Below, piece by piece: positions 7,277 through 35,847 of a DNA stretch of 53,185 nucleotides. Position 1 is the first letter of the stretch. The number at the start of each line of letters is the position of its first letter. The notes beneath the pieces were generated by a model. That model worked only from the letters and a program-made list of their open reading frames with translations, was not told the origin of the DNA and made no database searches. Where the stretch lies: positions 1 through 53,185 of the IMG/VR virus record IMGVR_UViG_3300046740_000679, one strand, 5' to 3'. The stretch comes from a virus. The position numbers were made by a program, and so were the translations under genes.

Positions 7277-7838
7277 TCGACACGACCTTTCCAACCGGCG
7301 CGGCCTCACCGCCCGGAAGCTCGTTCCCCCACTGAGACCAGTTCGATCGCGGTGCGCGCGCGAAGAGCTCCGCGTACGGCCCGCCCGCGAGGCGCTCGAC
7401 GATGCGATAGAATTCATCGGGTTTCGCCGAGTGCTCGCCACGCGGCGCGAAGAACACCGAGCGGATGCCGCGATCGCGCACCTTCGGCTTGCCGCGCGTC
7501 GCGATGATGCAGACCTCGTGCGACGCGCGCGTGTAGTGGCCCATGCCCATCGCGAGGCGCAACGGCTCCTCGGGCTTCGGCGCGGCCGTCTTCACCCAAA
7601 CGATCTCACTCTTCGGCGTGAAGCCCCACGCGCTGACGACGTCGAGCGCCGCCGCGGGCATCGAGGCCACGCGCCAGAGGAAGAGCAAGGCGTCGTCCGC
7701 GATGGGCGGCAGCGGGAAGCGCATGATCTCGTGAAGCGAGAGCGTCGCGTAGTGCTTCTCGGCGCCGCGGCCGGGACCGGGAAGCGTGTCGTCGAAGCGC
7801 CACGGCGGATCGGCGCAGAGGACGGGGAAGGGCTTCAT
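7269..7838 (-). CDS. MT-A70 family N6-adenine methyltransferase
   Basis: 189 residues. The catalytic DPPW motif is at 10-13, right after the first strand (FPVLCADPPWRF), and the later part (LFLWRVASMPAAALDVVSAW, WVKTAAPKP, GHYTRASHEVCIIATRGKP) is typical of phage MT-A70 proteins. It would methylate adenine in DNA (possibly RNA) using SAM, probably to protect phage DNA from restriction. It overlaps the genes on both sides. Length is normal for the phage type. Confidence 0.88.
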   Translation of the reverse strand: MKPFPVLCADPPWRFDDTLPGPGRGAEKHYATLSLHEIMRFPLPPIADDALLFLWRVASMPAAALDVVSAWGFTPKSEIVWVKTAAPKPEEPLRLAMGMGHYTRASHEVCIIATRGKPKVRDRGIRSVFFAPRGEHSAKPDEFYRIVERLAGGPYAELFARAPRSNWSQWGNELPGGEAAPVGKVVSNG

Positions 7839-8188: not shown

Positions 8189-8497
8189 GTGCCCCCCGCG
8201 AGGTCGAAGAGCCCGCCCTGCACGTCGACGAGGGGGAGACAATGCGGCGAGAAACTCACGACGTCCTCCGATTGCGCCGAGCTACACCGCTCAAGCGTCC
8301 TGCCTCGACAGCCGCGTCGTGGTCGAAACCAACGTCGCCCGCGGCAGCGTGCTCGCGCATGTGCGCCGCCTGACTCTCACCGCGCCCGATCCGAAGAAGG
8401 GTTCTACATAATTCGGCACGTTTCCGAATGCGCGCCACACGACGTCGGCGACGCGCGACTTGCCGCCAAACCATGGGAAGGGGGCTTTGAGGGTCAT
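8185..8497 (-). pseudogene. Remnant of a D12-class (Dam-like) N6-adenine methylase
   Basis: The N-terminus is intact: ATG 8497, ATGA-coupled to the C5 methylase, reading APFPWFGGKSRVADVVWRAF then NYVEPFFGSGAV. This is the SAM-binding part of D12 methylases. The frame then decays into unrelated sequence. In another frame, 8253-8185 encodes FSPHCLPLVDVQGGLFDLAG followed by the stop, the usual C-terminus of this family, and that stop still makes an ATGA overlap with the next gene. The middle, which should include the DPPY catalytic motif, is gone: about 310 bases remain of some 750-800. Confidence 0.65.
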
Positions 8498-9966
8498 GCG
8501 GCCGCGACCTCCTCACCGGCGAGGTTCGCGGAGACGAGCGCGGCGGCGATTGCCGGCGGCACGCTGTTTCCGCAAAGACGGATCTGCGCCGTCTTCGACA
8601 GCGAGCCGCCGTCGGGTGCCCGGTCGATGACGTACGAATCGGCGAAGCCTTGCGCGCGAAAGAGCTCGCGCGGCTGGAGCATCCGCTGGCCGATATCGGC
8701 GATCGCGTAGTCGGTTCCGTGCACGGTCACGAGCCCGAAGCGGTCGCGCGTCGTCACGGTGCCCAGCGAGAGCTGCAGCGACTGCCCGAGGCCCGTCCCG
8801 TTGTAACGCGTCAGAAAGGCGCGGACGTCGTTGGCGCGCGAACCATCCGTCGTGACGGTGACGAGCGCGTGGTGGTCCTGCGTCGTGATCGTCGAGAGGG
8901 GCAGACGCAGCGACGTTCCGGTCGCCTCGTGCCCGCCGTAGTGCTTCGCGAGGTATGCGGCGACGAGTGAGTGCTTCTGTCCTTGGGCGACAATGGTGCC
9001 CAGAGGAGCGTGCAGATCGAGAATGCGCGGCGCCTGGCCCTTGCGTTCGCCGTATCCGCTCTGAATGAGCGTCGGTGCGATGAGCATCAGCTCCCCGCGC
9101 TGCGCCGCCGTGATGGTGCGCAGAGGCGCGCCCGTCGAGTGAGGGGCGGAGTCGTTCACGCGACCGTGCGTCGACGGGACGATGAACGGCTCACCGGTCC
9201 GAAGGACGAAGCGATCGATCCCGCGCGCGATCCGGCGAAGCGTCTTTTCGACGAGCGGCTTCTTCCGGCCGAAGATCGAGGGACACGCGTGCGCCCAGTC
9301 GATGCACTCCGCGGCCGGTCGGTGTGCGCGCGCGAGTCCCGGCCCGTGCGTCGGCCGCGGCCACACGATCGGCTGCCCGTCCGAGCGCGCGATGATGAAG
9401 AGTCGCTTGCGGGACGTCGGTGCGCCGTAGTCGCACGCCCGGAGCTCACGCATCTCGACGACGTAGCCCGCTGCTTTGAGCTGCCCTAGCCAGCGCCGGA
9501 ACGTGAGCCCACGCCGCGCCGGGTCCGGCTTTCCGTCGTCGTCGAGCGGTCCCCAGTCCGCGAACTCCTCGACGTTCTCGAGCATGATAACGCGCGGCTT
9601 TACGTCGCGCGCCCAGCGGACGACCACCCATGCGAGCCCGCGCCGGCCGGTCGCCGACTTCGGATCGCGGAACGGCTTTCCCCCGCGCGCCTTCGAGTGG
9701 AAGGTGCAATCGGGCGAGAACCACGCGAGGCCGATCCGGCGGCCCTTACAAAGTTCCTTCGGCCTCACGTCCCAGACGTCGCCACAAAGGTGTCGGGTCT
9801 CGGGGTGATTGACCGCGTGCATCGCGATCGCTTCGGGGTCGTGGTTGATCGCGACGTCAGGCGATCGCTTGATCGCGCGCATGATGCCGGTCGACGCACC
9901 TCCGCCGCCCGCGAAGCAGTCGACGACGAGCTCGTCGGCGCTGAGGCGAAGGACGGGAGGCCTCAC
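8494..9966 (-). CDS. C5 cytosine-specific DNA methyltransferase
   Basis: 490 residues. Motif I is VDCFAGGGGAS (15-25); motif IV is SPDC with the catalytic Cys87 in place of the usual PPC; motif VI is ENV (130-132); RKR and a C-terminal motif near RLCGNSVPPAIA complete the fold. The variable region contains four related repeats built on 'PL-x-T-I-x-x-x-(R/Q)' (PLRTITAAQRG, PLGTIVAQGQK, PLSTITTQDHH, SLGTVTTRDRF), typical of phage methylases of this length. It probably methylates phage DNA against restriction. No cognate endonuclease is nearby. It is ATGA-coupled to a 29-residue leader gene upstream and to the methylase remnant downstream. Confidence 0.92.
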   Translation of the reverse strand: MRPPVLRLSADELVVDCFAGGGGASTGIMRAIKRSPDVAINHDPEAIAMHAVNHPETRHLCGDVWDVRPKELCKGRRIGLAWFSPDCTFHSKARGGKPFRDPKSATGRRGLAWVVVRWARDVKPRVIMLENVEEFADWGPLDDDGKPDPARRGLTFRRWLGQLKAAGYVVEMRELRACDYGAPTSRKRLFIIARSDGQPIVWPRPTHGPGLARAHRPAAECIDWAHACPSIFGRKKPLVEKTLRRIARGIDRFVLRTGEPFIVPSTHGRVNDSAPHSTGAPLRTITAAQRGELMLIAPTLIQSGYGERKGQAPRILDLHAPLGTIVAQGQKHSLVAAYLAKHYGGHEATGTSLRLPLSTITTQDHHALVTVTTDGSRANDVRAFLTRYNGTGLGQSLQLSLGTVTTRDRFGLVTVHGTDYAIADIGQRMLQPRELFRAQGFADSYVIDRAPDGGSLSKTAQIRLCGNSVPPAIAAALVSANLAGEEVAAA

Positions 9967-11748: not shown

Positions 11749-11972
11749 GACGTCACCGCCTTCCGAAGGCAGAAGCCGCAGCAGACGAACTTCGTGCCGG
11801 GCTTCCACGCCGCGGCATCGAGGACGATCGTGCGGTGCTCCTTGCAAGACGGACAAAACACCGCGCGCCTGATCGGGCGACGCGTGCTCACGTCGGTCGA
11901 CATGATCGGGAGGACCTCGACGCGCTCGGCGCGAAGGTCGAAGGGGACGTGGCGGGAGTGGGCGAAGATCAC
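11745..11972 (-). CDS. Small zinc-ribbon protein
   Basis: 75 residues, ATG 11972 (ATGA overlap). Two Cys pairs, CPSC (about 40) and CCGFC (about 65), make a plausible zinc ribbon; the N-terminal part is basic. It lies between the DUF6884 and DUF1643 genes and is coupled to both. Confidence 0.6.
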   Translation of the reverse strand: MIFAHSRHVPFDLRAERVEVLPIMSTDVSTRRPIRRAVFCPSCKEHRTIVLDAAAWKPGTKFVCCGFCLRKAVTS

Positions 11973-12448
11973 GACGCCGCTCCCTCGACGCCGACGCGGC
12001 CCCGTTCACGCCACGCTTGGGCGAACCACTGGAGCCGGCGACCGAGCCCGAGACCAAGAAGCGGCTCACGAATGCGGACGCAATTGACGTCGTGCCGCGA
12101 CTCAAAGACCTCTCGGATCGGCGCGGTGTAGTCGGCGCCGGCGAGGAGCAAGAGCTCGTACGGCCCACAACCCACGAACTCGCGATAGAGCTTGTTCGCA
12201 ATGCCCACGGCCCATTGCTGCGCGTCCTTCGGCTTCAGCCGATCGTCGTACGGCTCGATCCGATATTCGGGTTTGAGGAGGCCGTAGCGCGCCGAGACGA
12301 TGCGCCATTCGTCGCACTCCTCGGCGTACGCCCGAGCCGCTCGGAAGAGCGGGCCGGTGTAGAGGTCCTTCGCCCGCGCGGGTTTGAGGAGCTTGCTCTT
12401 GCCGCATCCCACCAGGGCGATGGTGATCGGCACGGACGGGGGGCTCAC
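11969..12448 (-). CDS. DUF6884-like phage protein
   Basis: 159 residues. The N-terminus IALVGCGKSKLLKPARAKDL followed by YTGPLFRAARAYAEE, WRIVSARYGLL and IEPYDDRL is typical of the short phage and mobile-element proteins grouped as DUF6884. The 'LVGC-GKSK' loop resembles a nucleotide-binding turn but is not a Walker A. Function unknown. The start overlaps the integrase stop. Confidence 0.7.
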   Translation of the reverse strand: MSPPSVPITIALVGCGKSKLLKPARAKDLYTGPLFRAARAYAEECDEWRIVSARYGLLKPEYRIEPYDDRLKPKDAQQWAVGIANKLYREFVGCGPYELLLLAGADYTAPIREVFESRHDVNCVRIREPLLGLGLGRRLQWFAQAWRERGRVGVEGAAS

Positions 12449-13818
12449 GAGGCCGCTCCCGTCGCCAGCGTCGGAGCGAACTCCGAGGCCCAGTAGGCCA
12501 CGACCGCCGAGGCGACCCCTGGAATCCTCGGCGTTTCCGATCGCACATCGCCGTACAGAACCGGCACAACCGAGGCTTCGCGCTTACGCTGATAGGCCTT
12601 TTTATTCCCTACGGAACGCGTGTTTTCGCTCCGCTTTCCTAAAGCGAAGGTCGGTAGTTCGAATCTCCCTGGGGGCGCGTCTTTTACCGCTGCTTTTGGC
12701 TCGTTTTGGCCTTGGTTGTTCGAGGCTTCCGCAGTCGTTTGAGCTTCAGTCGGTACAGAATCGACACACTCGGGCAGCGCGGCGACCGGGCGCGGAGCGT
12801 GGGCCTCGAGCTGGGCTTCGACGAGGGCGCCCATCTCTTCGCCCGTCGCCTTCGCGTACGTGGTCTGCGCGAGCTTGTCGGTCGAGTGACGGAGCATCTT
12901 CGACACCGCGTTGATATTCACGCCGGCGAGCAGGTGCCACTTCGCGAACGTGCGCCTTAGGTCGTTCGGACCGAGGCGAGGGATGCCCGCGCGAACGCAT
13001 GCGGCGGCCATATCGCGGACCATCTTCCCCCACGGATGAAAGAGAACGTCCGCACCCGGCGCGTGCTTCAACGCCTCGTCGAGGATCGGCGCGTTGACCC
13101 GCGTGATCGGAATGTCGTCGTCCGCGAAGGCCGTCTTCGTTCCGTGAAGGTGAACGATGCCGCGCGCCTTGTTCGTGTCGCGTCGACGCGCACGGAACGA
13201 CTCCTGATATCGCGCGCCGGTCGCGACGATGTAGAGGATGTGTGCGCCGCGGCGGCGATCGAATTGCTTGAGGAGCGCAGTGAGCTCGTCGGGCGTGGCG
13301 AAGCGATCGCGCGGTTTGTGGCCCGACCCGAAGTAAGGCGGCATGACTTGCGCGACGCTGCCGTGGAACGTGCCGAGGTGAATGGCGATCTTGAGCACCA
13401 TTCGAAGGTGGCCAAGCTCCATGTAGATCGTGTGGTCGCTCGCGGTCTCGCTTTGGCGCTTGTCGATGTACTCCATCACGAGCTTCGCCGTGATCCGAAG
13501 CATCGGGAGATCGCCTCCCCAGATGCGCGCGAAGTGACCGAGCTTCCCCTTCGCCTTGCTGAGCGTGGCCGCGCTGCGTTTGCGGCGCACCATGTCGAGG
13601 CGGAGTGCTTCTACCGCGCCGGCGAAGCTCGTCGCCGCCGCGGCTGCGTAACGTGGATCGGCGGCGACGCGCTCGAGCTCGTTCGCGCGCGCGACGGCCG
13701 CAGCTTCGTCGGTGCACTTGGTGCTCTTTCGGACCTTTCGTCCGGCCGGTCCGAGGACATGGGCCCAGATGGTCTTGCCTCGCCAGAAGAGTCTTGCGTC
13801 GCGGAGCTTCGGTTGCAT
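12445..13818 (-). CDS. int: Tyrosine integrase with attP inside its 3' end
   Basis: 457 residues from ATG 13818 (GGGGAAGAGGG just upstream); GTG 13845 would add nine. Domains: N-terminal arm-binding/core-binding region (1-170), then the catalytic domain with Arg box I (TGARYQESF), box II NDLRRTFAKWHLL (Asn where many have His, common in phage integrases), MLRHSTDK and the nucleophile Tyr in QTTYAK. The natural fold ends near VEAQLEAH; the ~110-residue tail is low complexity and runs antisense through the tRNA-like attP. Integration would therefore replace the C-terminal tail with host-derived sequence. It overlaps the excisionase-like gene by about 200 bases. Confidence 0.92.
   Translation of the reverse strand: MQPKLRDARLFWRGKTIWAHVLGPAGRKVRKSTKCTDEAAAVARANELERVAADPRYAAAAATSFAGAVEALRLDMVRRKRSAATLSKAKGKLGHFARIWGGDLPMLRITAKLVMEYIDKRQSETASDHTIYMELGHLRMVLKIAIHLGTFHGSVAQVMPPYFGSGHKPRDRFATPDELTALLKQFDRRRGAHILYIVATGARYQESFRARRRDTNKARGIVHLHGTKTAFADDDIPITRVNAPILDEALKHAPGADVLFHPWGKMVRDMAAACVRAGIPRLGPNDLRRTFAKWHLLAGVNINAVSKMLRHSTDKLAQTTYAKATGEEMGALVEAQLEAHAPRPVAALPECVDSVPTEAQTTAEASNNQGQNEPKAAVKDAPPGRFELPTFALGKRSENTRSVGNKKAYQRKREASVVPVLYGDVRSETPRIPGVASAVVAYWASEFAPTLATGAAS
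12634..12677 (+). other. attP: Putative attP core: 3' half of a tRNA-Arg(CCU)
   Basis: On the plus strand the segment contains an anticodon loop TTCCTAA (anticodon CCT), the variable region AAGGTCG, the T arm with loop TTCGAAT (12658-12664) and 3' T stem CTCCC, then the acceptor 3' strand TGGGGGC and discriminator G (12677). No 5' half is present, so this is not a tRNA gene. One T-stem base (the T at 12655) does not pair with the 3' T stem, as expected if identity with the host gene begins just after it. Phage integrases that target tRNA genes carry exactly such a 3' half as attP. Confidence 0.75.
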
Positions 13819-17331: not shown

Positions 17332-17462
17332 AGTTCAGCGTTCGTTCAAGGCTGGTGTGGCTCGCGATGATGCACGGCGTCTGTCCGCTGGCCGCGTTCG
17401 AGATGACGGCGCTCGAGTTTGCGGCGCGGCTTCGGGCTGCGCGCCAAGGGAGAATGTCATGA
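17328..17462 (+). CDS. Tiny early gene, 44 residues
   Basis: ATG 17328 overlaps the previous stop, and the stop overlaps the Bet start (ATGA 17459-17462). The peptide (MKFSVRSRLVWLAMMHGVCP) is hydrophobic and basic, possibly a small helix. Coupling is the main evidence for it. Confidence 0.4.
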   Translation: MKFSVRSRLVWLAMMHGVCPLAAFEMTALEFAARLRAARQGRMS

Positions 17463-18367
17463 CGACGACGAACGGCGCCGCGACCACGCTCGCGCGCAAA
17501 GACGACAACTTTTTCGACGACGAGACGATCGGCCTTATCCGCCGAACGATCGTGCCGGGCGCGACGGACGACGAATTCATGTCGCTGATGGCGGTCGCGC
17601 GCCTCCGTCGCCTGAACCCGCTCTTGAAGCAGATCCACTTCGTGAAGCGGCAGACGTACGACGACACCGCGAAGGAATACGTCATGCGCTGGGCGTTCCA
17701 GGTCGCGATTGACGGCTTTCGCCTGATCGCCGAGCGCACGGGCGCGTACGACGGCCAGGACGAGCCGGAGTACGAGCTCGCACCCGACGGCTCGATCATC
17801 CGCTGCCGCGTGAAGATCTACCGCAACGACAAGACGCGTCCCTTTGTGGGCATCGCCGACTGGACCGAATTCGTGCAGAAGAAGCGCGACGGCGGCGTCA
17901 CCGCCATGTGGCGAGACAAGCCGCGCCTTATGCTCGCGAAGTGCGCCGAAGCGATGGGGTTCCGCAAGGCGTTCCCGGAAGAGACGTCGGGCTTCTACAT
18001 CGAAGAGGAGATGAAGCGCGACGAGATGGAGGGCGAGGTCGTCCCGACGCTCGGTGGCACCGTGAACGGCAAGCGCGCGACGACGACGGCCGCTCCTACG
18101 ACGCCGAAGCAACTCGCGAGCGCCGAGGCATCGAAGGCCGCGGCCGCGGAGCTCCTCAAGGCGCTCGAGACGTGCGACGAGCGCGCGGGCGTGCTCCGCA
18201 TCGGCGCACAGATCGACGAGCGGGCGACGCGCGGCGAGCTCCTCATCCAAGATCGCGCGACGTGCCTCGGCGGCTACACGGATGCGCTGAAGCGGGTCGC
18301 CAAGCCAAGGTCGCCGCCGGCCACGCCTCCTGCGAATGCGCCGCCCGCGCAAGGAGGTGTCGCGTGA
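17459..18367 (+). CDS. bet: Bet/RecT-type single-strand annealing protein
   Basis: 302 residues. The N-terminal half is typical of phage recombination protein Bet: IGLIRRTIVPGATDDEFMSL, LNPLLKQIHFVKRQ, RWAFQVAIDGFRLIAERTGA, and later MWRDKPRLMLAKCAEAMGFR with KAFPEETSGFYIEEEM. Bet anneals complementary single strands exposed by a partner exonuclease for recombination and replication. The variable Ala/Pro-rich C-terminus is usual. The exonuclease is the next gene, GTGA-coupled, so the pair is a lambda Red-like module. Confidence 0.93.
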   Translation: MTTTNGAATTLARKDDNFFDDETIGLIRRTIVPGATDDEFMSLMAVARLRRLNPLLKQIHFVKRQTYDDTAKEYVMRWAFQVAIDGFRLIAERTGAYDGQDEPEYELAPDGSIIRCRVKIYRNDKTRPFVGIADWTEFVQKKRDGGVTAMWRDKPRLMLAKCAEAMGFRKAFPEETSGFYIEEEMKRDEMEGEVVPTLGGTVNGKRATTTAAPTTPKQLASAEASKAAAAELLKALETCDERAGVLRIGAQIDERATRGELLIQDRATCLGGYTDALKRVAKPRSPPATPPANAPPAQGGVA

Positions 18368-22747: not shown

Positions 22748-23221
22748 GTGAAAGCGACCCCCGATGTACCGCCGGTGCTGCGTGCGTTGGTGACCGAGCT
22801 TCTCGCCGAGTCCGAAGAGGCGAAGCGTGTCCCCGAGGCTCCCCACGCGGCCGGCGACTGGAGCCTTGACGTCGAGATGCAATGGCGCGCCGAGCGACTG
22901 CGAGGTATCGCGGGGCGCCTCAATGAGATCGCCGGCACGCTCGAGGACGGGTGGAAAGTGAAAGCGGTGGAAGCGCTACCCAAGCCCACCGTGCCTGAAG
23001 TGCTTCCTCTCGTCCGCGATCTCTATGCGCGGCCGAACGGCGGCGCCGGCTGCTGTCTCCATATCGTGATCGACGACGGCAACGTGGATGACGACAGCGT
23101 GGCGCACTGCCTTTCGCTCGCGCGCCTCGACGGGCATGCGGACTGCGAGCGCCTCGCGAAGCTACTCGCGCTCATGTCGAAGACGCAGCGGCAGAAGCTG
23201 TATTCTATTCGAACCACCTGA
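22748..23221 (+). CDS. Hypothetical protein, 157 residues
   Basis: GTG 22748 is the likely start (AAGG nearby). Helical first half (VKATPDVPPVLRALVTELLA), with a second domain near PTVPEVLPLVRDLYARPNGG that resembles small phage helper proteins. It ends 17 bases inside the convergent transglycosylase gene. Role unknown. Confidence 0.55.
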   Translation: MKATPDVPPVLRALVTELLAESEEAKRVPEAPHAAGDWSLDVEMQWRAERLRGIAGRLNEIAGTLEDGWKVKAVEALPKPTVPEVLPLVRDLYARPNGGAGCCLHIVIDDGNVDDDSVAHCLSLARLDGHADCERLAKLLALMSKTQRQKLYSIRTT

Positions 23222-23684
23222 CCGGATGCGCGCGCAATAGCTCGCCCGCGAGCTTCGTCCGGTGGCGGCTCGCCTCGCCGCCGCGTCCGCACGATCCGCT
23301 CGCGTACTCCGCGAGCCTAAATTCCTTCGGCCGCACGCGACACGTTCGCAGCGACGAGCGCAACATCGCGATCGCGGCGCGCGCGGCGACGTCGGGATCG
23401 AAGAGATCGTCGATCGCGACGTCAAGCCGGCGAACGTTCGATACGCCGACCTGGAAGAGCCCGAGCGAGCGACCGTGGTCGCCGACGGCGCGTGGATCGA
23501 AACGCGACTCGAACCACGCGATCGCGACGAGCTGCGCCGCCGTCCGCTCGGGGCCATCCTCGCCCGCATAGAGCGGCGCCTCGTGGCTCGCGCGATCGAT
23601 CGCGGCGGCGGTCTGCGGGAACGTGTCGGCGTACGGGGCGCGCGGCACGAGGGCGAGCATCATCATCAAGATCCAATGCGTCAT
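23205..23684 (-). CDS. Exported SLT-type lytic transglycosylase
   Basis: 159 residues from ATG 23684. Signal peptide about 1-19 (MTHWILMMMLALVPRAPYAD) with a plausible cleavage before Asp20. The catalytic Glu59 is in VAIAWFESRFDPRAV, followed by GDHGRSLGLFQVG, the Gly-x-x-Gln loop of SLT domains. It would cleave peptidoglycan in the periplasm. It is separated from the muramidase block by a hairpin and may act in late lysis or as a secreted accessory. It ends convergent to 22748-23221. Confidence 0.8.
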   Translation of the reverse strand: MTHWILMMMLALVPRAPYADTFPQTAAAIDRASHEAPLYAGEDGPERTAAQLVAIAWFESRFDPRAVGDHGRSLGLFQVGVSNVRRLDVAIDDLFDPDVAARAAIAMLRSSLRTCRVRPKEFRLAEYASGSCGRGGEASRHRTKLAGELLRAHPVRWFE

Positions 23685-24469: not shown

Positions 24470-25150
24470 TCATGACTGCTCCTCCGGGTCGCGCGAACTC
24501 GGCGGCGGCCCCACGAAGACGGGAGCGTCGTCGCCCCCATCGGTGACATCGATCGGCGCGGCCGGCTGCGCGGCGTGGATGCTCGCGACGTAGCCGGTCC
24601 ACGTGTCACCCATCGCGGCGCACGATCGCGCGATCGCCTCGGTGAGCTGGTGCACCCGGATCTCGCCGGTCCGGTGCGGATCGAAGCTGAGGTTGCCGGC
24701 GTACCAGCCGATCACGTCCTCACGCTTGAACGTGTACGGCGAGTCGGTGCGCCCGTCCTGCGAGCAAAGGAGCGCATCGGGGTTGCCGGCGAGATCGAGC
24801 AGCGCCGGAAGATACGTGCAGACGTAGGCCGCCGCGGCGTTGACGAGCTTGCCCTTGTGCGGCGCGAAGTAGCGTTCCCAATAGGGGAGCTGCATCTCGG
24901 CCGAGAGCGCGGCGAAGCCTTCGAGGTTCGCCGCGATCCATCGGACCCCCGGGGCAGCGACGGCGGTGAGCTGCCAAAGCCCGGCCGCGACGACGACGAT
25001 GACGCCGTCCTTTCGCTTGTATCGATTCCTCGCAGCCGGGTCGCAGCGACTCTCGTTCGCCGCGACGGAGAGAAGATCGACGGGATCGACGTCGATGCGT
25101 CCGCACATCGCGACGTAGGGGCGGAAGAAGGGCGTCGGCAGCATGGTCAC
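24470..25150 (-). CDS. Muramidase / transglycosylase-like endolysin candidate
   Basis: 226 residues. The catalytic Glu33 sits in LLSVAANESRCDPAARN, followed by AAGLWQLTAVA, a lysozyme-like Gly-x-x-Gln loop, and AAAAYVCTYLPALL (helix after the active site). It lacks a signal peptide, so if it is the endolysin, release needs the holin-like proteins encoded upstream. A Pro/Asp-rich tail closes it. It is the first of two peptidoglycan enzymes in the lysis region. Confidence 0.65.
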   Translation of the reverse strand: MTMLPTPFFRPYVAMCGRIDVDPVDLLSVAANESRCDPAARNRYKRKDGVIVVVAAGLWQLTAVAAPGVRWIAANLEGFAALSAEMQLPYWERYFAPHKGKLVNAAAAYVCTYLPALLDLAGNPDALLCSQDGRTDSPYTFKREDVIGWYAGNLSFDPHRTGEIRVHQLTEAIARSCAAMGDTWTGYVASIHAAQPAAPIDVTDGGDDAPVFVGPPPSSRDPEEQS

Positions 25151-25936: not shown

Positions 25937-26286
25937 GGCGAGCTCCTTGGCCCGCGGCAGCCGTTCTTCCAAGCGGGCGCGCACGCGCGGATCCCCTCGG
26001 GACTCTTCTGCGTAGCCACGCACGACGGCGCATAATTGGCGAGCCGCGCGGCCTGCGCGGTCCGCATCGTGTCGGCGCAGTTCGGCGCGTCGCCTTCGGG
26101 GCAACCGACAGCCCGGAGATTGAGGCAGGCGATCGCAAACGCATCGTCGGGGGCCGCGTCGAGCCAATAAGGCGATGCGTCGGTTGGCCAAAGCGAGGCA
26201 TCGCTCGCATCGATCGGTGTGATCGGCGCGGGCGCTGGGGTGCAGGCGATGAAGAGGACGAACAGCAGAGCGAGGAGGAACTTCAC
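25933..26286 (-). CDS. Lipoprotein with Cys-rich mature domain
   Basis: 117 residues. MKFLLALLFVLFIACTPAPA gives a clear lipobox with lipidated Cys15; the mature region has a Pro/Thr-Asp/Ala linker and later cysteines (CLNLRAVGCPEGDAPNC, SCVATQ, ACAPAWKNGC) that could form disulfides in the periplasm. ATG 26286 overlaps the protease stop. It may be part of the spanin/lysis set or a surface protein. Confidence 0.6.
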   Translation of the reverse strand: MKFLLALLFVLFIACTPAPAPITPIDASDASLWPTDASPYWLDAAPDDAFAIACLNLRAVGCPEGDAPNCADTMRTAQAARLANYAPSCVATQKSPEGIRACAPAWKNGCRGPRSSP

Positions 26287-27065
26287 AGCGTCACCTCACG
26301 AACGACGGGCGCCCACTTCAGGGCCGTTGCATCCCAGATCCCGCCCGTGGCGACGAAGCTCGTGTCGATCCACGCGTAGCCCGAGTCGGCGAATCCGTCG
26401 CCCCACGAACCGGTCACCTTGAACTGACCGGGCCGGTAGCCCGAGATGCGCTGCGCGTGCCCGCCTCGCATCTTCCCCGTCGGCCCGGTGTAAACCTGTC
26501 CCGGACGGAGGTTGATGTACCCGTCGTCGACGTCCATCCCAAAAGGGACGTGAATGTCGCCGGCAACGCATTGTTTGATCGCAAGCACGAGGTCGTTGCC
26601 CGCCTGGGTAAGCCAGGAGAAACCGGTGACCTTCGCAATCGCGCAGCGCTCCATCTCGAGCAGCCCGAGGCGATCGTTCAGATGCGGCGCCTCGTCAGTG
26701 TATGGGTAGTCGGCTTCGGCCATCACGCCGAAGTCGGCGAGCGCCTCGACGCCGATCGCCGGATCGGTCCCCGAGTCCGTGAGCTCGACGTCGGGGTCGG
26801 CCACCATGAGCGAGCGCGCGAGCGCGTAGGCCGCAAGGGCGCTGATGGGGACGATGACGTCACCCTCACGCGCGTGTGCGCGCTGGAAGGCTTCGGCGGC
26901 CTTGCCATAGCCGAAGGACCAGCATGAGCCCGCGATTCCCTGGTCGTAGATCGTGTCGGGGAGCTCGTAGGTGTCGGGGATTGCCGTCACCGCTCCGAGC
27001 GCTAGGTGGTGCACGGACCCGCGCGGGACACGCGTCGCGCGCGAGTGGAGATACTTTCGATTCAT
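26283..27065 (-). CDS. Papain-family (C1A-like) cysteine peptidase
   Basis: 260 residues. The active-site block YDQGIAGSCWSFGYGKAAEA gives Gln42 and Cys48 in the papain context Q-G-x-x-G-S-C-W-(A/S)-F; His203 lies in RGGHAQRISGY. The 'NSWG' segment that carries the active-site Asn reads GSWG (219-222), so that Asn is replaced by Gly. There is no signal peptide. Location between a holin-like gene and lipoproteins suggests a lysis, exported or host-takeover role; papain-like enzymes are uncommon in phages. Start ATG 27065 overlaps the previous stop. Confidence 0.8.
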   Translation of the reverse strand: MNRKYLHSRATRVPRGSVHHLALGAVTAIPDTYELPDTIYDQGIAGSCWSFGYGKAAEAFQRAHAREGDVIVPISALAAYALARSLMVADPDVELTDSGTDPAIGVEALADFGVMAEADYPYTDEAPHLNDRLGLLEMERCAIAKVTGFSWLTQAGNDLVLAIKQCVAGDIHVPFGMDVDDGYINLRPGQVYTGPTGKMRGGHAQRISGYRPGQFKVTGSWGDGFADSGYAWIDTSFVATGGIWDATALKWAPVVREVTL

Positions 27066-28309: not shown

Positions 28310-31300
28310 TTAGATCCCGTACTTCGTGTGGATATAGGCATTCACGACGGCGCGATCGCCCGTCGACAGCTTCGAGGGCCACGCGAAGAGGAATGCGATC
28401 ATCCCGATGTAATCGGAGATGACGCCTTTGCCGACGCGATGCGTGCCGTAACCGACCGTGTTGCTGGCCTGCGTATAGATCTGTGTGCCGTTGAACGAGG
28501 CCGTCCACTCCGAGGCCGTCGCGATCGAGTTGTAGCTCCAAGGCAGAGCCCATTTGCCGGACGCCGGTGCAAAACCCGTCGTCTGTCGCGTCGTTGAACC
28601 GCTGCCGTCGTACAGCTGACGATTCGATGCGAGCGGGAACAAGTTCGCCTGCGTGTCGTCGGTGAAGCAGAACGGCGATACTTGCGTGGTGTCGTCCGCG
28701 TTTTGGCAGACGGCGAACAGGTCGAGGCCCGTCAGCGTGGGGAACGATGCGAAGGTGAGGGTGTCGCCGCCACCGACGAATCGCACGGACTTCTGGCCAT
28801 TGATGCCTGAGCTAACAAGCGCAGGTAGGAAGCTTGGAGGGCTGAGCGTGCGTCCATTGCCGCTCTGGTCGGCCCACGCCGTGATGTTCGACCCCGATAG
28901 CGTCATACCGACGTCGCCGCTGAATCCGAACGCGAAGCCCGCGGGCAGGTAAGCGAATGCGTTCGCCTTGGTACCGGTGCCGCCCGGAGTCGTGACGGAG
29001 AGCGTGTTGTTTGCGCTGGCTGCCACCGCAGCCGTGGTGCCCGTGATCGTCGTCGAGTTGACGACGGTGAACGATGTGACGTTGACGCCGCCAATCGATA
29101 CGACCGTGGCGCCCGTGAGATTGGTGCCGGTAAGCGTGAACGACGTGCCGCCAGATGCTGTTCCGAAGTCGGGTAGTATCGACGTGACAGTGGGAACCGA
29201 CGTTGCTCCAGAAACGGTGGATGTGCACGTTCCGACGATGTGACCATTCAGATCGGTCACGGTGATCGTGTCGACCCCGTTTCCGGGCCCCGCGGTGATG
29301 ATTCCAGAACTGGAGACGCTGCCGCCACTGTTGTTCGTCGTGACTGCGTATGTGTAATCGCCGGCGCCCATTACCGTGAGCTGCTGCGTGGTGTTGATCG
29401 TGAGCGAGACGGTGGTGGGGGTGACCGTGCCCGGCATTGCCTGAGGCGTCACGATCATCCACTCCGACAACTGCAAGGCGGCGACATTGAGCACGATGCC
29501 CGTGGTCGTCCGCGCTGCTACGAGGCACATGTTGCCCGGTGTCGCCTCGTAAAGTCCGCCGTAGTAGAAACCGCCGAAAACCGGCTCGAATTCGAGAATC
29601 GACGAGCTCCACGCCGTGTTCCACGCGGAACCCGGATCCTGATAGAAGATCCCACCCTTCACGGATGATCCGATGCGACGGATCAGAACAACGCGACGCC
29701 CAGATGCGAGTTTTCGCACCTGTTGGCCCGAGGAGTGTCCCGGCAGATTGACGGTCACCGGTGCGGCCCAAGTCACGCCGTGATCGGTCGAGTGCGACGC
29801 GAGCATCGGAAGTGAACCGGACGTGTCGTCACGAATGAGCGTGCGTAGCTCGGAGCCCTCGAAGTCAAAACCGGGCTCGACGTACTTTTTCGAGTCGGTC
29901 ATCCCGTTCGCGATGCGATTGCGTGTCCACGTCGCGCCCGCGTTCGTGGTGATGTAATCCCATACCGAATAGAAGGTGTCGCTCGACCCCTCTTTCGTCC
30001 ACACCGCCATATGCAAGGTGCCTGGCGTCGTGGGGTCCTCAACCGGCGCGCATTGCGTCGCAGACCACGTCGGCGTGCCTGTCGTGATCGCGTTCCAGGT
30101 CCCGGGCCAGATGGGGGATCCGTCAACGTTGAACGTCGTCGCTCTGCGCCACACGACGTTCACGAACGCCAGCGAGACGTCGTAGGTCATCGTGACCTGA
30201 ATCAAGCTGCCATCGGCGAGCGGCTCGCTCGTCTTGAGGTCGCTGTAGAGCGTCGTCGCGCTCGTATTGATGACGGTTGGACCCGACCACGTCAGCCCTC
30301 CATCCGAGGACAAGAACGCGTCGCTATGGTCGCTATGCTGCGGCCCGATCGACTCCGATGTATTGGTTACGGTCGCATAGAGCTTTCCGCCCGGAAGCTT
30401 TGAGACCCAGGGGAACCCTGCCGACTGAGTGGGGTCGGCATAGAGCGGGTCGCCTTCGAGGAGAACGCTGGGCTTCGTCCCGAAGCGTGCGGACAGCCTC
30501 GTATTGAGCGCCGCGACGTCGGAGTCGGAGAGATAGCTGTCGTAAAGTTCGACCGCCTTGTAGTCGCCGGCGGCGCCACCAATCTGAAGTTTGCCCGTGG
30601 TACCGGCCGCATACGAACGCGCGGGTGAGATGGTCCAGCCGCCGACCTTGGCCGACTGGCCGTCGACCATTACGTCGCAATGCGTATCCGAAAGACGAAC
30701 GACGATCGTCTGATTCTTGAACGGGATAAAGACCCCGCTCATGATCGCGCCCGCGATGCTGAGCGAGTCGAACACCCACGAAGAGCCGTCCCATTGGCGA
30801 ACGCTGATCGATCGGCCGTAGAAGATATTGTTCCCCTCGTCGCCGATCTGGACCTGGATGCCGGCCTTCGTGCCGCCCTCGGTGGTGTCGAGCAACGTGA
30901 CGAGCGTGCTGGTCGTGATCGACCGATAGCGCCAGACGAACGCCATCGTGCACGGGCCGCTATTCAGGAACGCGGCGGCTCCGCCCGGCGTGAGTAGCTT
31001 GTTCGCGGTCGTCGTACGAATGACGTTGCCGCCATCGACCGAATCGGTGACCACGCGCGGCGTTCCCGCAATGCTGGTGGCCACACTCCATACCGTGATG
31101 AGCTCGCCCGTCGCGGTGATCGATGCGGGCACATCCCCGTAGAAGCTAAGTGCCGGCGTGGGTCCGCCGCCGCCCGAAGGAGTGACTGCGATGACGAGAG
31201 GCAAAAGCGCGACGCGGAAGTTGAGTGTGCGGCCGCCGACCGATCCTGAGCCCCGCGCAATCAGATCGTTTCCGCTCACTGCGAGCGACGCGGATGCGCC

Positions 31301-31912
31301 CGTGAGCGTGCCCGCGGCGGTTCCACCGGCGTCGCCCACGTCCGTGACCGGAGCTCCGCCGCCCGTGCGTGCGAGCGTGATCGTGCGCGTCTGACGCCAC
31401 GTCTTCGTGGGCTGCGCCGGATCGCCCGCGACGAACGACGCCGAGACATCGATCACCGAGTCGTCGGGGACGGGATAGGTAAGAAGCGTGGAGGTCTGCG
31501 CGCCCGTGGTCGTGCCGGTGCCCGTAAGCGTGTCGCTCGATCCCCCGCCGGCGCCCGGAGCGGCTGCGACGATGACGAGCGCGCCCGAGGCGACGGTGTC
31601 TCCAGGTTGAGCGCTGCCCGTCGGGATCGACTTCAGCGAGAGCTGCACCTGCGTGCTGCTGAGGATGTTGTAGACGATATAGAAGCCGCCGCCGTTGACG
31701 GCATAAGGCAAGAGCGCCGCCATCGTCGCGGTGCTGACAACATGGACGGTGATCAGCGCGTCGATCGCGGGCTGCACGAAGCTCGCGGTTGTCGACGTAT
31801 ACGCGGTGAGCCCGGGGCCACCGGGATCGCCGGTGTCGCCCTTCGGGCCCGTGGGACCCGGCGGCCCTTGAACCTGCTCGGTGACGAGCACGATCGAATC
31901 AGAATCGCTCAT
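28310..31912 (-). CDS. Receptor-binding tail spike: collagen-like, lectin-like, sialidase-type propeller and Ig-like domains
   Basis: 1200 residues from ATG 31912 (MSDSDSIVLVTEQVQ), ATGA-coupled to the gene before. Order: short collagen-like Gly-x-y stretch (16-34, GPPGPTGPKGDTGDPGGPG); a beta-rich segment; a LamG/lectin-like region (about 260-480); a sialidase-type region (about 490-830) with three Asp boxes (SSDGGLTW, TTNAGATW, STDHGVTW); an Ig-like Big_2-type region; an IPT/TIG domain (ILPDFGTASGGTSFTLTGTN); and a C-terminal LamG-like domain (SGDVGMTLSGSNITAW). It would bind and possibly trim sialic-acid-type or other cell-surface glycans. Catalytic Arg triad and Tyr were not verified. Confidence 0.75.
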   Translation of the reverse strand: MSDSDSIVLVTEQVQGPPGPTGPKGDTGDPGGPGLTAYTSTTASFVQPAIDALITVHVVSTATMAALLPYAVNGGGFYIVYNILSSTQVQLSLKSIPTGSAQPGDTVASGALVIVAAAPGAGGGSSDTLTGTGTTTGAQTSTLLTYPVPDDSVIDVSASFVAGDPAQPTKTWRQTRTITLARTGGGAPVTDVGDAGGTAAGTLTGASASLAVSGNDLIARGSGSVGGRTLNFRVALLPLVIAVTPSGGGGPTPALSFYGDVPASITATGELITVWSVATSIAGTPRVVTDSVDGGNVIRTTTANKLLTPGGAAAFLNSGPCTMAFVWRYRSITTSTLVTLLDTTEGGTKAGIQVQIGDEGNNIFYGRSISVRQWDGSSWVFDSLSIAGAIMSGVFIPFKNQTIVVRLSDTHCDVMVDGQSAKVGGWTISPARSYAAGTTGKLQIGGAAGDYKAVELYDSYLSDSDVAALNTRLSARFGTKPSVLLEGDPLYADPTQSAGFPWVSKLPGGKLYATVTNTSESIGPQHSDHSDAFLSSDGGLTWSGPTVINTSATTLYSDLKTSEPLADGSLIQVTMTYDVSLAFVNVVWRRATTFNVDGSPIWPGTWNAITTGTPTWSATQCAPVEDPTTPGTLHMAVWTKEGSSDTFYSVWDYITTNAGATWTRNRIANGMTDSKKYVEPGFDFEGSELRTLIRDDTSGSLPMLASHSTDHGVTWAAPVTVNLPGHSSGQQVRKLASGRRVVLIRRIGSSVKGGIFYQDPGSAWNTAWSSSILEFEPVFGGFYYGGLYEATPGNMCLVAARTTTGIVLNVAALQLSEWMIVTPQAMPGTVTPTTVSLTINTTQQLTVMGAGDYTYAVTTNNSGGSVSSSGIITAGPGNGVDTITVTDLNGHIVGTCTSTVSGATSVPTVTSILPDFGTASGGTSFTLTGTNLTGATVVSIGGVNVTSFTVVNSTTITGTTAAVAASANNTLSVTTPGGTGTKANAFAYLPAGFAFGFSGDVGMTLSGSNITAWADQSGNGRTLSPPSFLPALVSSGINGQKSVRFVGGGDTLTFASFPTLTGLDLFAVCQNADDTTQVSPFCFTDDTQANLFPLASNRQLYDGSGSTTRQTTGFAPASGKWALPWSYNSIATASEWTASFNGTQIYTQASNTVGYGTHRVGKGVISDYIGMIAFLFAWPSKLSTGDRAVVNAYIHTKYGI

Positions 31913-32322
31913 CGGGTCACCGGGAGGTCGATGGTTACGGGGCCCGCGAGGACGGGGAATGAGGTCCCATCGGGTGTGCCCGACGGGTCGAGCCAGCAGT
32001 CCCAAACGCCGGAGAAGAGGGTCCGCTGCGGTTGGGCGCGCGCGTCGCCGGTATAGAGCGCGCGGAGCGAGAGGCTTTGTGCGGCAGTGATCACGACGAG
32101 GATCGATCCGTCGCTCGCGCCGAGCGTGATGCCGTTGCCCGCAGTCAGCGAGAGGAGCGGCGACGGATCCGTCTTCTTCTGGCGGATCATCGCGCGCGCG
32201 CCGTAGCCCGCGAACGCGAACGGCTGGAGATCGCCGCCGCTGACGACGAAGCGGAGCGAGGACGCAGCTCCGGGTCGCAGAACCAAGAGGCGTTCCGCAG
32301 GTAGCTTGATGAGGGCCGGCAT
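31909..32322 (-). CDS. Hypothetical structural protein, 137 residues
   Basis: MPALIKLPAERLLVLRPGAA begins a beta-rich small protein that ends where the spike gene starts. Located between the spike and the two paralogous fibre proteins, it may be a fibre-associated or baseplate adaptor protein. No family recognised. Confidence 0.55.
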   Translation of the reverse strand: MPALIKLPAERLLVLRPGAASSLRFVVSGGDLQPFAFAGYGARAMIRQKKTDPSPLLSLTAGNGITLGASDGSILVVITAAQSLSLRALYTGDARAQPQRTLFSGVWDCWLDPSGTPDGTSFPVLAGPVTIDLPVTR

Positions 32323-33167
32323 TACGGCCGGATCACGATCACGTGCAGACTCGGCACGAGGAGACTGACCGCCGAGCCGTCTCCGCTCGACCCCTGCAAC
32401 TTGACCGTATGCGTTCCGTTCTCGACGACGACGAAGGACGCGAGCGCGCCGCCGGGAATCGATCCGACGGAGGCGGTGTTATTGGCCCACCCTGCTTGGC
32501 CCAGGACGACGGTGCCGAGGGTCGGCTGCACGATCACGGTCTGCGAGTTGACGGTCTTTCCGGTGTTCGCGAAGAGCGTCGTGGAGTGCCCGACCTTCAC
32601 GACATCGCCGGTCTTCAAGCCGGTGAGCGTGACGAAGCACGCCGTCACGTCGACGAACACCGCCGAGCTCGTCGGGAAGTCGGGGGTCATCACGTCGCCG
32701 AACGCGACGATCGCGTTGCGCACGGAGGCCGCCGGGACACGCCCCGCGCTATCGCACTGGGCGATCCCGTTCGGAGCCCCGACGGTCCCGAGCCCGAAGG
32801 CGATCAGGATCCATCGGCCGGCACCGCCGCCGACGAAGGTCGGAGTGCGGACCGTCGGCGCAAGGGGCGTCGCGGTGCTCGCGGCGACGAACTGATATTT
32901 ACCGACACCATCGACGATGCACGTCTCGCCGTCGACAGCGTCGGGCGCGGCGATCGCGAGAAGCGCGCCGTCGCTTGCCACGTGCCTCTCGAAGCGCACA
33001 CCATCGGTCGATGGCGCGATGAGATCGATCCGGTTCTTGTTTTGGCGCGTGCGATTCGACAGCCCTTGGAAGGGCGTGCGCACGGACACGTAGCCGCGTG
33101 CGTCGGTCGCGTTGGGGACTGCGATCGCCGGAAAGACGGTCGCGTCGTCCGTGAGTGTATCGGGCAT
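32322..33167 (-). CDS. Tail fibre protein, paralogue of the upstream gene
   Basis: 281 residues. Its layout matches that of 33188-34039: an N-terminal D-D-x-T-x-F region, then V-D-G-V-G-K-Y-Q-F with a GAGRWILIAFG turn, and a C-terminal beta-rich domain ending VIVIRP (the other ends AMMIRP). The pair is a tandem duplication of a fibre or fibre-tip gene. No catalytic motif is visible. Confidence 0.65.
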   Translation of the reverse strand: MPDTLTDDATVFPAIAVPNATDARGYVSVRTPFQGLSNRTRQNKNRIDLIAPSTDGVRFERHVASDGALLAIAAPDAVDGETCIVDGVGKYQFVAASTATPLAPTVRTPTFVGGGAGRWILIAFGLGTVGAPNGIAQCDSAGRVPAASVRNAIVAFGDVMTPDFPTSSAVFVDVTACFVTLTGLKTGDVVKVGHSTTLFANTGKTVNSQTVIVQPTLGTVVLGQAGWANNTASVGSIPGGALASFVVVENGTHTVKLQGSSGDGSAVSLLVPSLHVIVIRP

Positions 33168-33187: not shown

Positions 33188-34039
33188 TCAGGGCCGGATC
33201 ATCATGGCGTCGAGCGAGAGGACGCCGTTCGCGGTCTGCGTCGCGGCGCCGGAGAGCGAGAGGTAGCGAGCCTTTACGGTCTGCGTTCCCGAATGCGTGA
33301 CGACGTAACGTCCGAGGAGCGTCTGCGTCGCGGTCTCGTTCACGGGGATGGAGACTTCTTGGACGATGTTGGTGCCCGCGCTGTCCGTCACGGTGAGCGC
33401 GAGCTTGCCGCCCGCACTCGAGGGAGCGAGGAACGGCACCGAGGCGCGCACCATGAGTACGTCGCCGACGGCCGCACTCGAGAGGACGACTTGCGCCGGC
33501 CCCGCGCCGATATCGACGTAGGTCGTCGACGTCGTCGTTCCGTAGGCGGACCCCACGGTGCCGAACACCGCGCCCGCCGTTGCGATGATGCCGTTGACGA
33601 CCTTCGCCGCATCGACGCGCGCCGAGCCGTTGAGCCTCGGAACGCCGTTCGCGATGTCGAGCGCTCCGAACGCCGAGAGCTCCCAACCGCCAGTCCCGTC
33701 GGTCGCCGCGATCTGAAAGGGCGGATCGTTCGTGTCAGTCGCGGCGAAGTATTGATAGAGACCGACATTGTCGACGTAGCAGAAGCCGCCCTCGATCTTG
33801 GCCGCCCCCGTGAGTGCTTCGAGCGCGGCGATCGTTGCCACATGGCGCAGGACGCTCACGCCGCCGGGAGAGGCACCCGAGCCCGGAGCCACCGCATCAA
33901 GGCGCGCCTTGTTCCCCGCCGTGCGATCCGCGAGCTTCTGCGCCGTAGTCTGAATGTCCGCGACGTTGATGAGGTCACTCGCGGACGGCGCCGTGACGGC
34001 CGCGAACGAAGTCGGGTCGTCGGTAATTGTTACGGGCAT
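33188..34039 (-). CDS. Tail fibre protein
   Basis: 283 residues. MPVTITDDPTSFAAVTAPSA, then VDNVGLYQYFAA and GGWELSAFGAL, form the same layout as the neighbouring fibre gene; the C-terminus is a beta-sandwich-like region. It lies right after the baseplate gene gpI, the standard place for a fibre. Confidence 0.65.
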   Translation of the reverse strand: MPVTITDDPTSFAAVTAPSASDLINVADIQTTAQKLADRTAGNKARLDAVAPGSGASPGGVSVLRHVATIAALEALTGAAKIEGGFCYVDNVGLYQYFAATDTNDPPFQIAATDGTGGWELSAFGALDIANGVPRLNGSARVDAAKVVNGIIATAGAVFGTVGSAYGTTTSTTYVDIGAGPAQVVLSSAAVGDVLMVRASVPFLAPSSAGGKLALTVTDSAGTNIVQEVSIPVNETATQTLLGRYVVTHSGTQTVKARYLSLSGAATQTANGVLSLDAMMIRP

Positions 34040-34042
34040 CGC

Positions 34043-34723
34043 TCAAACCTCCAAGTAAACGGCGGTGCCGAGCAGCGACGACCACGTCACCGCCCCGTGA
34101 CTGGCCCACGTGCCGCCGAGCGTTCCCCAGAGCTCGTCGCTGAGGAGCAAGATCACGTTCGCGCACTGCGTATGCGGCGGCTTCAGCTTGCGAACGAGCG
34201 CGCGCAAACGTTGCCAGTCGCCGAGCGGGATCTCCTCGGCCCAGTTGCCGGGATCACCCCACGTGCCGTCGGCGTTGCCCCAAAGCCCGGCCGCGAGCGG
34301 GCTACATGTCCACGGGAACGTGGGACGAATGATGACCCAAAACTTCCACCAGGCCGCAGGCCAGCCCTCGGCCCACTGGAAGCTCTCCCAAAGCTCGACG
34401 TTCGGAATGCCGGCGCGCTTGAGTGAGGCGACGATGCCCGTCGGTGTGCCCGACGCGAGCCACTGTTCCCACGCGTAATTGAGCTGCGCGATGAAGGTCG
34501 CATCGTCCTTCGCGAACGCGCGATCGATCTGAAAGTTCGACCCGATGTAGTCGAGCGCATCGCTCGGCGCCGAGGCGGGGAAGCGTGCCAGCGTGGCCGC
34601 CTTCGCGCGCGCGACGTAGTCGTCTTTCGTCTGCCCGAGCGAGACATTCCAGGCGACGGCGCCGTCATCGCGGAGCCAGGGCGGCGCGTTCTCGACTTGA
34701 TACTCCTCGTACGTCGGGCTCAT
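34043..34723 (-). CDS. Baseplate protein, gpI / Mu gp48-like
   Basis: 226 residues. MSPTYEEYQVENAPPWLRDD followed by RFPASAPSDALDYIGSNFQI matches the start of the tail proteins that follow baseplate J in Mu- and P2-like phages. The C-terminal half is Trp-rich (GLWGNADGTWGDPGNWAEEI), which may form a beta rich tip. It overlaps the J gene by ATGA. Confidence 0.6.
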   Translation of the reverse strand: MSPTYEEYQVENAPPWLRDDGAVAWNVSLGQTKDDYVARAKAATLARFPASAPSDALDYIGSNFQIDRAFAKDDATFIAQLNYAWEQWLASGTPTGIVASLKRAGIPNVELWESFQWAEGWPAAWWKFWVIIRPTFPWTCSPLAAGLWGNADGTWGDPGNWAEEIPLGDWQRLRALVRKLKPPHTQCANVILLLSDELWGTLGGTWASHGAVTWSSLLGTAVYLEV

Positions 34724-35847
34724 CGGCTCGCCGTGAGGAGGAAGTTCGGCGTGAAGACCTGCGTGCCGAGCAGCGTGAGGTCGGAGGTGGGGCCCGTGAG
34801 CGCGAGGTTCGTGACGCCGGGGGTGTCGACGATCGCGGCGATCAGCTTGTCCAGGATCATCGTCCCCGCGATCGCCGTCGATCGCGCGTAGGCGAGGACG
34901 TTCGCTTGGACAGCGGCGAGCGTCGCCGTTAGGTCATACGCGCCGTCGACGATGACGTTGCCCGCGATGTTCGTGTTCGTGCCGGTCGCATTGGTGGCGA
35001 CGACCTTCACGCAGAGCACGCGCTTCACTTGAAGGAGCGCGTTCACGGCATTGTAGCCGTCGGTCGTGAGCGGCCCCGAGGGGCCTGCGACGACGACGGT
35101 GACGGTGCCCGTGTCGGGGTCCTCGAGTAGCCGCGTGCGCGTGACCTCCGAAGACGCGAACGTCGCCCAATAGAGATAGGCGCTCGAGGTCGAGCCGCTC
35201 CCGAGCGTGCCCCACTTGTTTTTGCAGCGCGCCACGTAGAGCGCGTTCGACTCGACGTCGGTGCCCTGCTGCGTGATCCAGGACGTCGTACCCGAGATCG
35301 CCGGGTTGCTGACCGTGACTCCGGGCAGCGACGACTGGAGAACCGTGAGTGCGCCGTTCGAGAGGTTGTAGGCCGCGCCCGGCGAGCTCGCCTGAAGGGT
35401 GAGCGGAAGGCTCCCGCTCAAGGGCAGTGTGCCGCCTCCGAGGTTCTGGAAGAGAAACCGACGCGTAGGGTCTGAGATGAAGAGCTGCCCGGGCTGAATC
35501 GTCGTCGGGCCGTTCGCGCCTGCGTCGACGAGGGTCACCTGCCCGCGCGTGGTCGTCGCCGGCTTGCGCGTCTCCTGAAAGACGCCTTGGCAGAGCAGGT
35601 CGAGCCAACCGGGCCCGCCTTCGGGCGTCACGAGCGCGGCGAGATCGAGGAAGCCGCCCGCCGCAATGCGCGCGATGGTCGCGTCGAGATCGGCGAGGTA
35701 GCTCGACTCGCCCTGAAGGAGCGCCGTCGGAAGGCTGAAGGGTGCCCACGACGTCTCTTGGATGCCGTTCGCCTGGAGCTTCGAGAGCATAAACGCGAGC
35801 GCGTCCGCCTCGGTCTTCGTGGCGAGGAGATCGGAGAGAAGCGTCAT
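34720..35847 (-). CDS. Baseplate J protein (gpJ family)
   Basis: 375 residues. LLSDLLATKTEADALAFMLS, RGQVTLVDAGANGPTTIQPG, RRFLFQNLGGGTLPLSGSLP and PGVTVSNPAISGTTSW, then the long C-terminal domain, fit the baseplate wedge protein J of Mu/P2-type myoviruses. It connects wedge to fibres during contraction. ATG 35847 overlaps the stop of the next gene upstream. Confidence 0.85.
   Translation of the reverse strand: MTLLSDLLATKTEADALAFMLSKLQANGIQETSWAPFSLPTALLQGESSYLADLDATIARIAAGGFLDLAALVTPEGGPGWLDLLCQGVFQETRKPATTTRGQVTLVDAGANGPTTIQPGQLFISDPTRRFLFQNLGGGTLPLSGSLPLTLQASSPGAAYNLSNGALTVLQSSLPGVTVSNPAISGTTSWITQQGTDVESNALYVARCKNKWGTLGSGSTSSAYLYWATFASSEVTRTRLLEDPDTGTVTVVVAGPSGPLTTDGYNAVNALLQVKRVLCVKVVATNATGTNTNIAGNVIVDGAYDLTATLAAVQANVLAYARSTAIAGTMILDKLIAAIVDTPGVTNLALTGPTSDLTLLGTQVFTPNFLLTASR

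Follow-up and report, generated by a model that had tools for sequence, protein, structure and literature searches.

The gene considered here lies on the minus strand of a 53-kb virus record (G+C 66.6%), the whole of which is called the window below. Its product is most probably the receptor-binding spike of a temperate Mx4/MMP7-type phage with a contractile tail, bearing glycan-binding modules and a reduced sialidase-like pocket that would not be expected to cleave Neu5Ac; we put the probability of this reading at about 0.7. Sialidases hold sialic acid by a triad of arginines; since only one of the three is kept, the spike would probably grip, and perhaps trim, a glycan of the host surface that is not sialic acid. 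The features are collected in Table 1. The reading frame is uninterrupted from the ATG at 31912 to the stop at 28310, so that the 1200-residue product first predicted for this gene holds over its full length. The ATG overlaps the stop codon of the upstream gene as ATGA (4 bases), an arrangement that suggests coupled translation of the two genes. A longer form starting from a TTG at 32005 would run into the upstream gene, and the ATG was taken instead.

Table 1. Features of the spike gene and of its neighbours, with positions in the window
Feature	Position	Strand	Remarks
Spike gene, 1200 aa	28310..31912	-	Open reading frame
Collagen-like neck, residues 16-36	31805..31867	-	Seven G-x-y triplets
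N-terminal beta-rich region, residues 37-250	31163..31804	-	No database match
LamG-like domain 1, residues 262-479	30476..31129	-	Directly before propeller; profile match
Sialidase-fold Asp-box propeller, about residues 484-826	29435..30463	-	Pfam, model, Foldseek, profile
Gly499, at the place of sialidase Arg R1 (FRIP motif)	30416..30418	-	Triad residue absent
Asp box 1, SSDGGLTW, residues 535-542	30287..30310	-
Asp box 2, TTNAGATW, residues 655-662	29927..29950	-
Glu679, partner of catalytic Tyr	29876..29878	-	Glu in 16/16 aligned propellers
Arg694, sialidase Arg R2	29831..29833	-	Present; Arg in 14/16
Asp box 3, STDHGVTW, residues 708-715	29768..29791	-
Ser749, at the place of sialidase Arg R3	29666..29668	-	Triad residue absent
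Tyr784, aligned with catalytic Tyr nucleophile	29561..29563	-	Tyr in 15/16
Putative Ig-like stretch, residues 830-905	29198..29425	-	Pattern; weak matches in Myxococcota genomes
IPT/TIG domain, residues 907-988	28949..29194	-	Pfam
LamG-like domain 2, residues 999-1200	28313..28918	-	C-terminal; profile match
Small protein, PHROG 1084 (function unknown)	31909..32322	-	Directly upstream; 4-base overlap with spike start
Likely fibre-base protein, paralogue A	32322..33167	-	33% identity to adjoining paralogue B
Likely fibre-base protein, paralogue B	33188..34039	-	33% identity to adjoining paralogue A
Conserved tail protein bordering the fibre slot	34043..34723	-
Baseplate wedge (J-like) protein	34720..35847	-

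The order portal, major capsid, sheath, tape measure and baseplate is that of Meiothermus phage MMP7 and, for the most part, that of Myxococcus phage Mx4, a Mu-like phage with a contractile tail according to PMC8530038 and PMC10720576; Thermus phage Riverbug shares the sheath, the baseplate and the next tail gene. Among the tail modules found, one on a contig of a Myxococcota genome comes closest (43-45% for the sheath, 53% over 191 aa for baseplate J); this contig stops short of the spike position. Neither the sheath alone in IMG/VR nor an alignment of baseplate J against genome contigs recovered relatives. TIG domains similar to that of the spike are common in Myxococcota genomes. A host among the Myxococcota appears likely from these genome-assembly contigs, some of which come from metagenomes.

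Other genes of the window fit a temperate phage that carries DNA modification genes of its own: an integrase (12445-13818), a C5 cytosine methylase (8494-9966), an MT-A70 methylase (7269-7838) and RecT (17459-18367). The early region also contains a DUF5131 gene (6305-7276, minus strand, E 2.7e-76) and a DUF6884 gene (11969-12448, minus strand, E 1.5e-31). A papain-family enzyme (Peptidase_C1, E 8e-6), unusual in a phage, is encoded at 26283-27065 on the minus strand, near lysis-type genes for SLT-like proteins (24470-25144 and 23205-23684); it has the motifs GSCWSF and GGHA. Searches for RNA families and tRNAs found none.

The spike gene follows the baseplate genes in a fibre slot whose content varies, where MMP7 and Riverbug have their tail fibre genes; from this location its product is very probably a receptor-binding spike. 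No homologue of it was found at the matching tail modules of Mx4, MMP7, Riverbug and Myxococcota genomes; other relatives fill the slot that follows the conserved tail gene with fibre proteins non-homologous to the spike. Two paralogous genes, whose products both end in IRP and are likely fibre-base proteins, sit between the baseplate genes and the spike. These paralogues and the non-homologous contents of the slot in relatives make the spike a likely host-range determinant, in keeping with the original prediction. A weak relative of the paralogues occurs in a Thermus/Meiothermus-type viral locus (L010). Nothing suggestive of diversity-generating repeats was seen, only repeats of 30-40 bases less than 80% alike. 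The product might instead be a virion-surface protein of another kind or be secreted, serving for instance as a decoration with non-specific affinity for mucus or matrix, since the comparable propeller gene of halovirus HCTV-5 adjoins HNH and integrase genes and is not evidently in a tail module; this is improbable, however, for a gene that directly follows baseplate and fibre-base genes at the MMP7/Riverbug tail-fibre position and whose product bears a collagen-like neck.

That neck, a run of G-x-y triplets as had been proposed (GPPGPTGPKGDTGDPGGPGLT), is followed by a beta-rich region that is probably a shaft or attachment part; the N-terminal 250 residues gave no match in phage records. Of the Ig-like domains predicted in the plural, one is solid: the TIG domain is matched by Pfam with E 4.6e-10, above the curated cut-off and over 84/84 profile positions. 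The stretch that precedes it may be Ig-like, as pattern similarity and weak matches in Myxococcota genomes suggest.

The center of the protein is a propeller of the sialidase fold. All three Asp boxes announced for it are present in strict form, against a mean of 0.008 boxes in 20,000 shuffles of the protein, one of which held two or more. Pfam BNR_2 matches with E 1.4e-11, above the curated cut-off, and a propeller profile built with the window left out finds the region at 3.7e-12 (in 1000 sequences). The AlphaFold2 model has a beta-rich core with pLDDT of about 70-87 over much of the propeller; its mean pLDDT is 52.5, because LamG-like domain 1 is not resolved in it. Foldseek searches of this model against solved structures returned 486 chains at E up to 0.001: the best match is a protein of unknown function (5hx0, E 5e-13) and sialidases come next (E 1e-9 to 3e-12, probability 1.00), including PA2794 (2w38, 3h6j), so that the predicted propeller is borne out by its fold. 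The highest-ranking viral model is R4T9V8, equal in length (645) to the HCTV-5 'sialidase'; the K1E and phiA41 tail spikes rank lower. The alignment given to AlphaFold2 comprised 14 propellers, three of them canonical sialidases by their arginine motif; thus, fold and family are not wholly independent here, whereas the BNR_2 match and the window-free profile stand independent of the model.

The active site was read in two alignments, one of them an L-INS-i alignment of 16 propellers. The check on the arginine triad and the tyrosine gives a divided answer: Tyr784, Glu679 and the second arginine (Arg694) are kept, while R1 is replaced by Gly499 and R3 by Ser749. In both alignments, these two positions hold Arg in three canonical-motif sequences (L052, L053, L054) and in no phage relative. 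The placement of R3 depends on the alignment around a loop, and R745 or R746, which lie nearby, could substitute for it. The region of the acid/base Asp, near the first blade, includes H526, D528 and D531 in a loop that the methods align differently; His526 is common to all phage relatives but one in the L-INS-i alignment. With R1 and R3 lost, membership of GH33 fails on the triad, and the canonical sialidase implied by the original term 'sialidase-type' is unsupported. A true GH33 exo-sialidase removing Neu5Ac-type sialic acid is accordingly a very remote prospect, despite the BNR_2 match, the fold match to sialidases and the conserved Tyr, Glu and R2. GH33 exo-sialidases, for example those of M. 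viridifaciens and P. gingivalis and NanH, share with the spike the Asp-box propeller, the Tyr, the Glu and the second Arg, and differ from it in having the full triad. Several GH33 exo-sialidases also carry LamG-like lectin domains.

The residues that are kept leave Tyr/Glu chemistry possible in the spike propeller. The pocket could also be purely that of a lectin, which binds glycan with no enzyme activity and in which the Glu and Tyr are structural or binding residues, the protein still being a spike. Two of the three triad arginines are gone, the propeller of an environmental relative (L026) has drifted to Trp for the Tyr and His for R2, and Asp-box propellers without enzyme activity exist, as in Vps10 receptors (PMC2716378); on the other hand, the persistence of Glu (16/16) and Tyr (15/16) across very divergent sequences suggests a working pair. 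The chances of a pure lectin fall somewhat short of even, and a glycosidase of some other kind would be about equally probable.

No full-length relative of the spike was found in phage records, in IMG/VR or by DNA, and there is thus no studied protein from which its virion location and function could be read. The nearest annotated phage protein is a hypothetical protein of Microcystis phage Mwe-JY05 (WWT39762.1), in which a collagen-like neck is followed by the same propeller (27% identity) with Glu, R2 and Tyr kept and R1 and R3 absent. Unlike the spike, it has 572 aa and lacks LamG-like domain 1 and TIG; its C-terminal part weakly matches a 3-keto-disaccharide hydrolase family. The same residues are kept and lost in Pseudomonas phage PP21 BFG81828.1 and in a PA2794-like phage protein (L031), and the HCTV-5 propeller protein has the same reduced site; the PP21 and HCTV-5 propellers sit behind other N-terminal parts.

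PA2794 of Pseudomonas aeruginosa (PDB 2w38/3h6j) is a fold match of the spike propeller and the top PDB match of a propeller profile that contained PP21. It is listed as a pseudaminidase with three Asp boxes (PMC2716378) and, according to a review, seems to act on pseudaminic acids (PMC3658417). Specific kinship with PA2794 had been considered from the strength of this PDB match and was toned down, the profile having contained PP21; a profile from the window and Mwe-JY05 alone matches general sialidases in the PDB. PP21 has the PA2794-like C-terminal domain PF22432, also found by others in prophage tail proteins (PMC12579547), whereas Pfam does not find it in the spike, and PP21 and PA2794 lack LamG and TIG. 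The K1-type endosialidase tail spikes (GH58) are likewise phage tail spikes with an Asp-box propeller (PMC2716378); the spike, however, has no Pfam match to the endosialidase propeller model or to the C-terminal chaperone domain.

In three environmental viral proteins (L026, L028, L034) the propeller comes immediately after a LamG-like part and has a reduced pocket like that of the spike, with the drift noted in L026; no collagen neck was found in them and their C-terminal parts differ. LamG combined with a reduced sialidase-like propeller thus appears, from these sequences, as a recurring recipe in phage proteins, to which the spike adds the collagen neck, the Ig-like stretch, TIG and a second LamG. 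It is a tentative and rather doubtful suggestion that a single family of phage-tail glycosidases, with Tyr/Glu chemistry and a reduced arginine set, unites the propellers of the spike, Mwe-JY05, PP21, HCTV-5 and the environmental LamG-plus-propeller proteins; its putative target would be a glycan still to be assigned, for example a nonulosonic acid of microbes or a neutral sugar of the matrix.

Neither LamG-like part reaches Pfam on its own, and a separate test was therefore needed. A LamG profile built from other viral proteins, with the window left out, finds residues 260-478 (i-E 1.2e-6) and 998-1200 (i-E 2.4e-28) of the spike and matched 0/999 shuffled copies. An alignment of LamG-like domain 2 recovered 20 further viral loci, and 11 of the 23 rows of its family alignment (A10) match Pfam Laminin_G_3. 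The domain also shares 38% over about 72 residues with a Pseudanabaena phage protein, whose own Laminin_G_3 match stays below the cut-off; in phage records, LamG-like domain 1 gave no match. The model of residues 825-1200 is moderate (mean pLDDT 55) and its best fold matches are weak, near E 1e-3 (best 6.8e-4); they include the tail spike of cyanophage Pan3 as well as trypanosomal sialidases, enzymes with a lectin-like jelly roll. Both parts flanking the propeller are thus LamG-like, as had been proposed, by a classification that sequence supports well and structure weakly. The domain type recurs in other viral contexts: three ORFs of a single contig each contain it (L111:1-3900), a 752-residue frame has it in tandem with identical scores on three separate contigs (L108, L109, L110), and an environmental protein of about 1110 aa (L028:2961-6302) combines a sialidase-like propeller with two such domains and a weak third LamG-like part.

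In the mechanism that we propose for the receptor-binding spike, the N-terminal part and the collagen-like neck would anchor the protein and trimerise it, three chains being held by the neck. LamG-like lectin 1 and the propeller would form the head, and the Ig/TIG spacer would carry the second LamG-like lectin at the C-terminal tip, so that head and tip may both engage glycans in the envelope or extracellular matrix of the host. The pocket, with the Tyr784-Glu679 pair and Arg694, might cleave another glycan or only bind it; cleavage of Neu5Ac is not expected, since two carboxylate-binding arginines are missing, and a possible substrate would be a nonulosonic acid of another kind, in line with the proposal for PA2794.

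Modular glycan-targeting spikes with propellers are already known, and this one is a newly seen receptor-binding protein, probably an ordinary one. To our knowledge, the receptors of Mx4-like contractile phages have been little studied, and the spike offers a concrete candidate for their host-recognition protein. More generally, phage tail proteins with a sialidase-fold propeller are often without the defining arginines of sialidases, and 'sialidase' labels on such proteins should therefore not imply sialic acid cleavage; if the pocket is active, propellers of this kind may yield enzymes that act on unusual microbial glycans.
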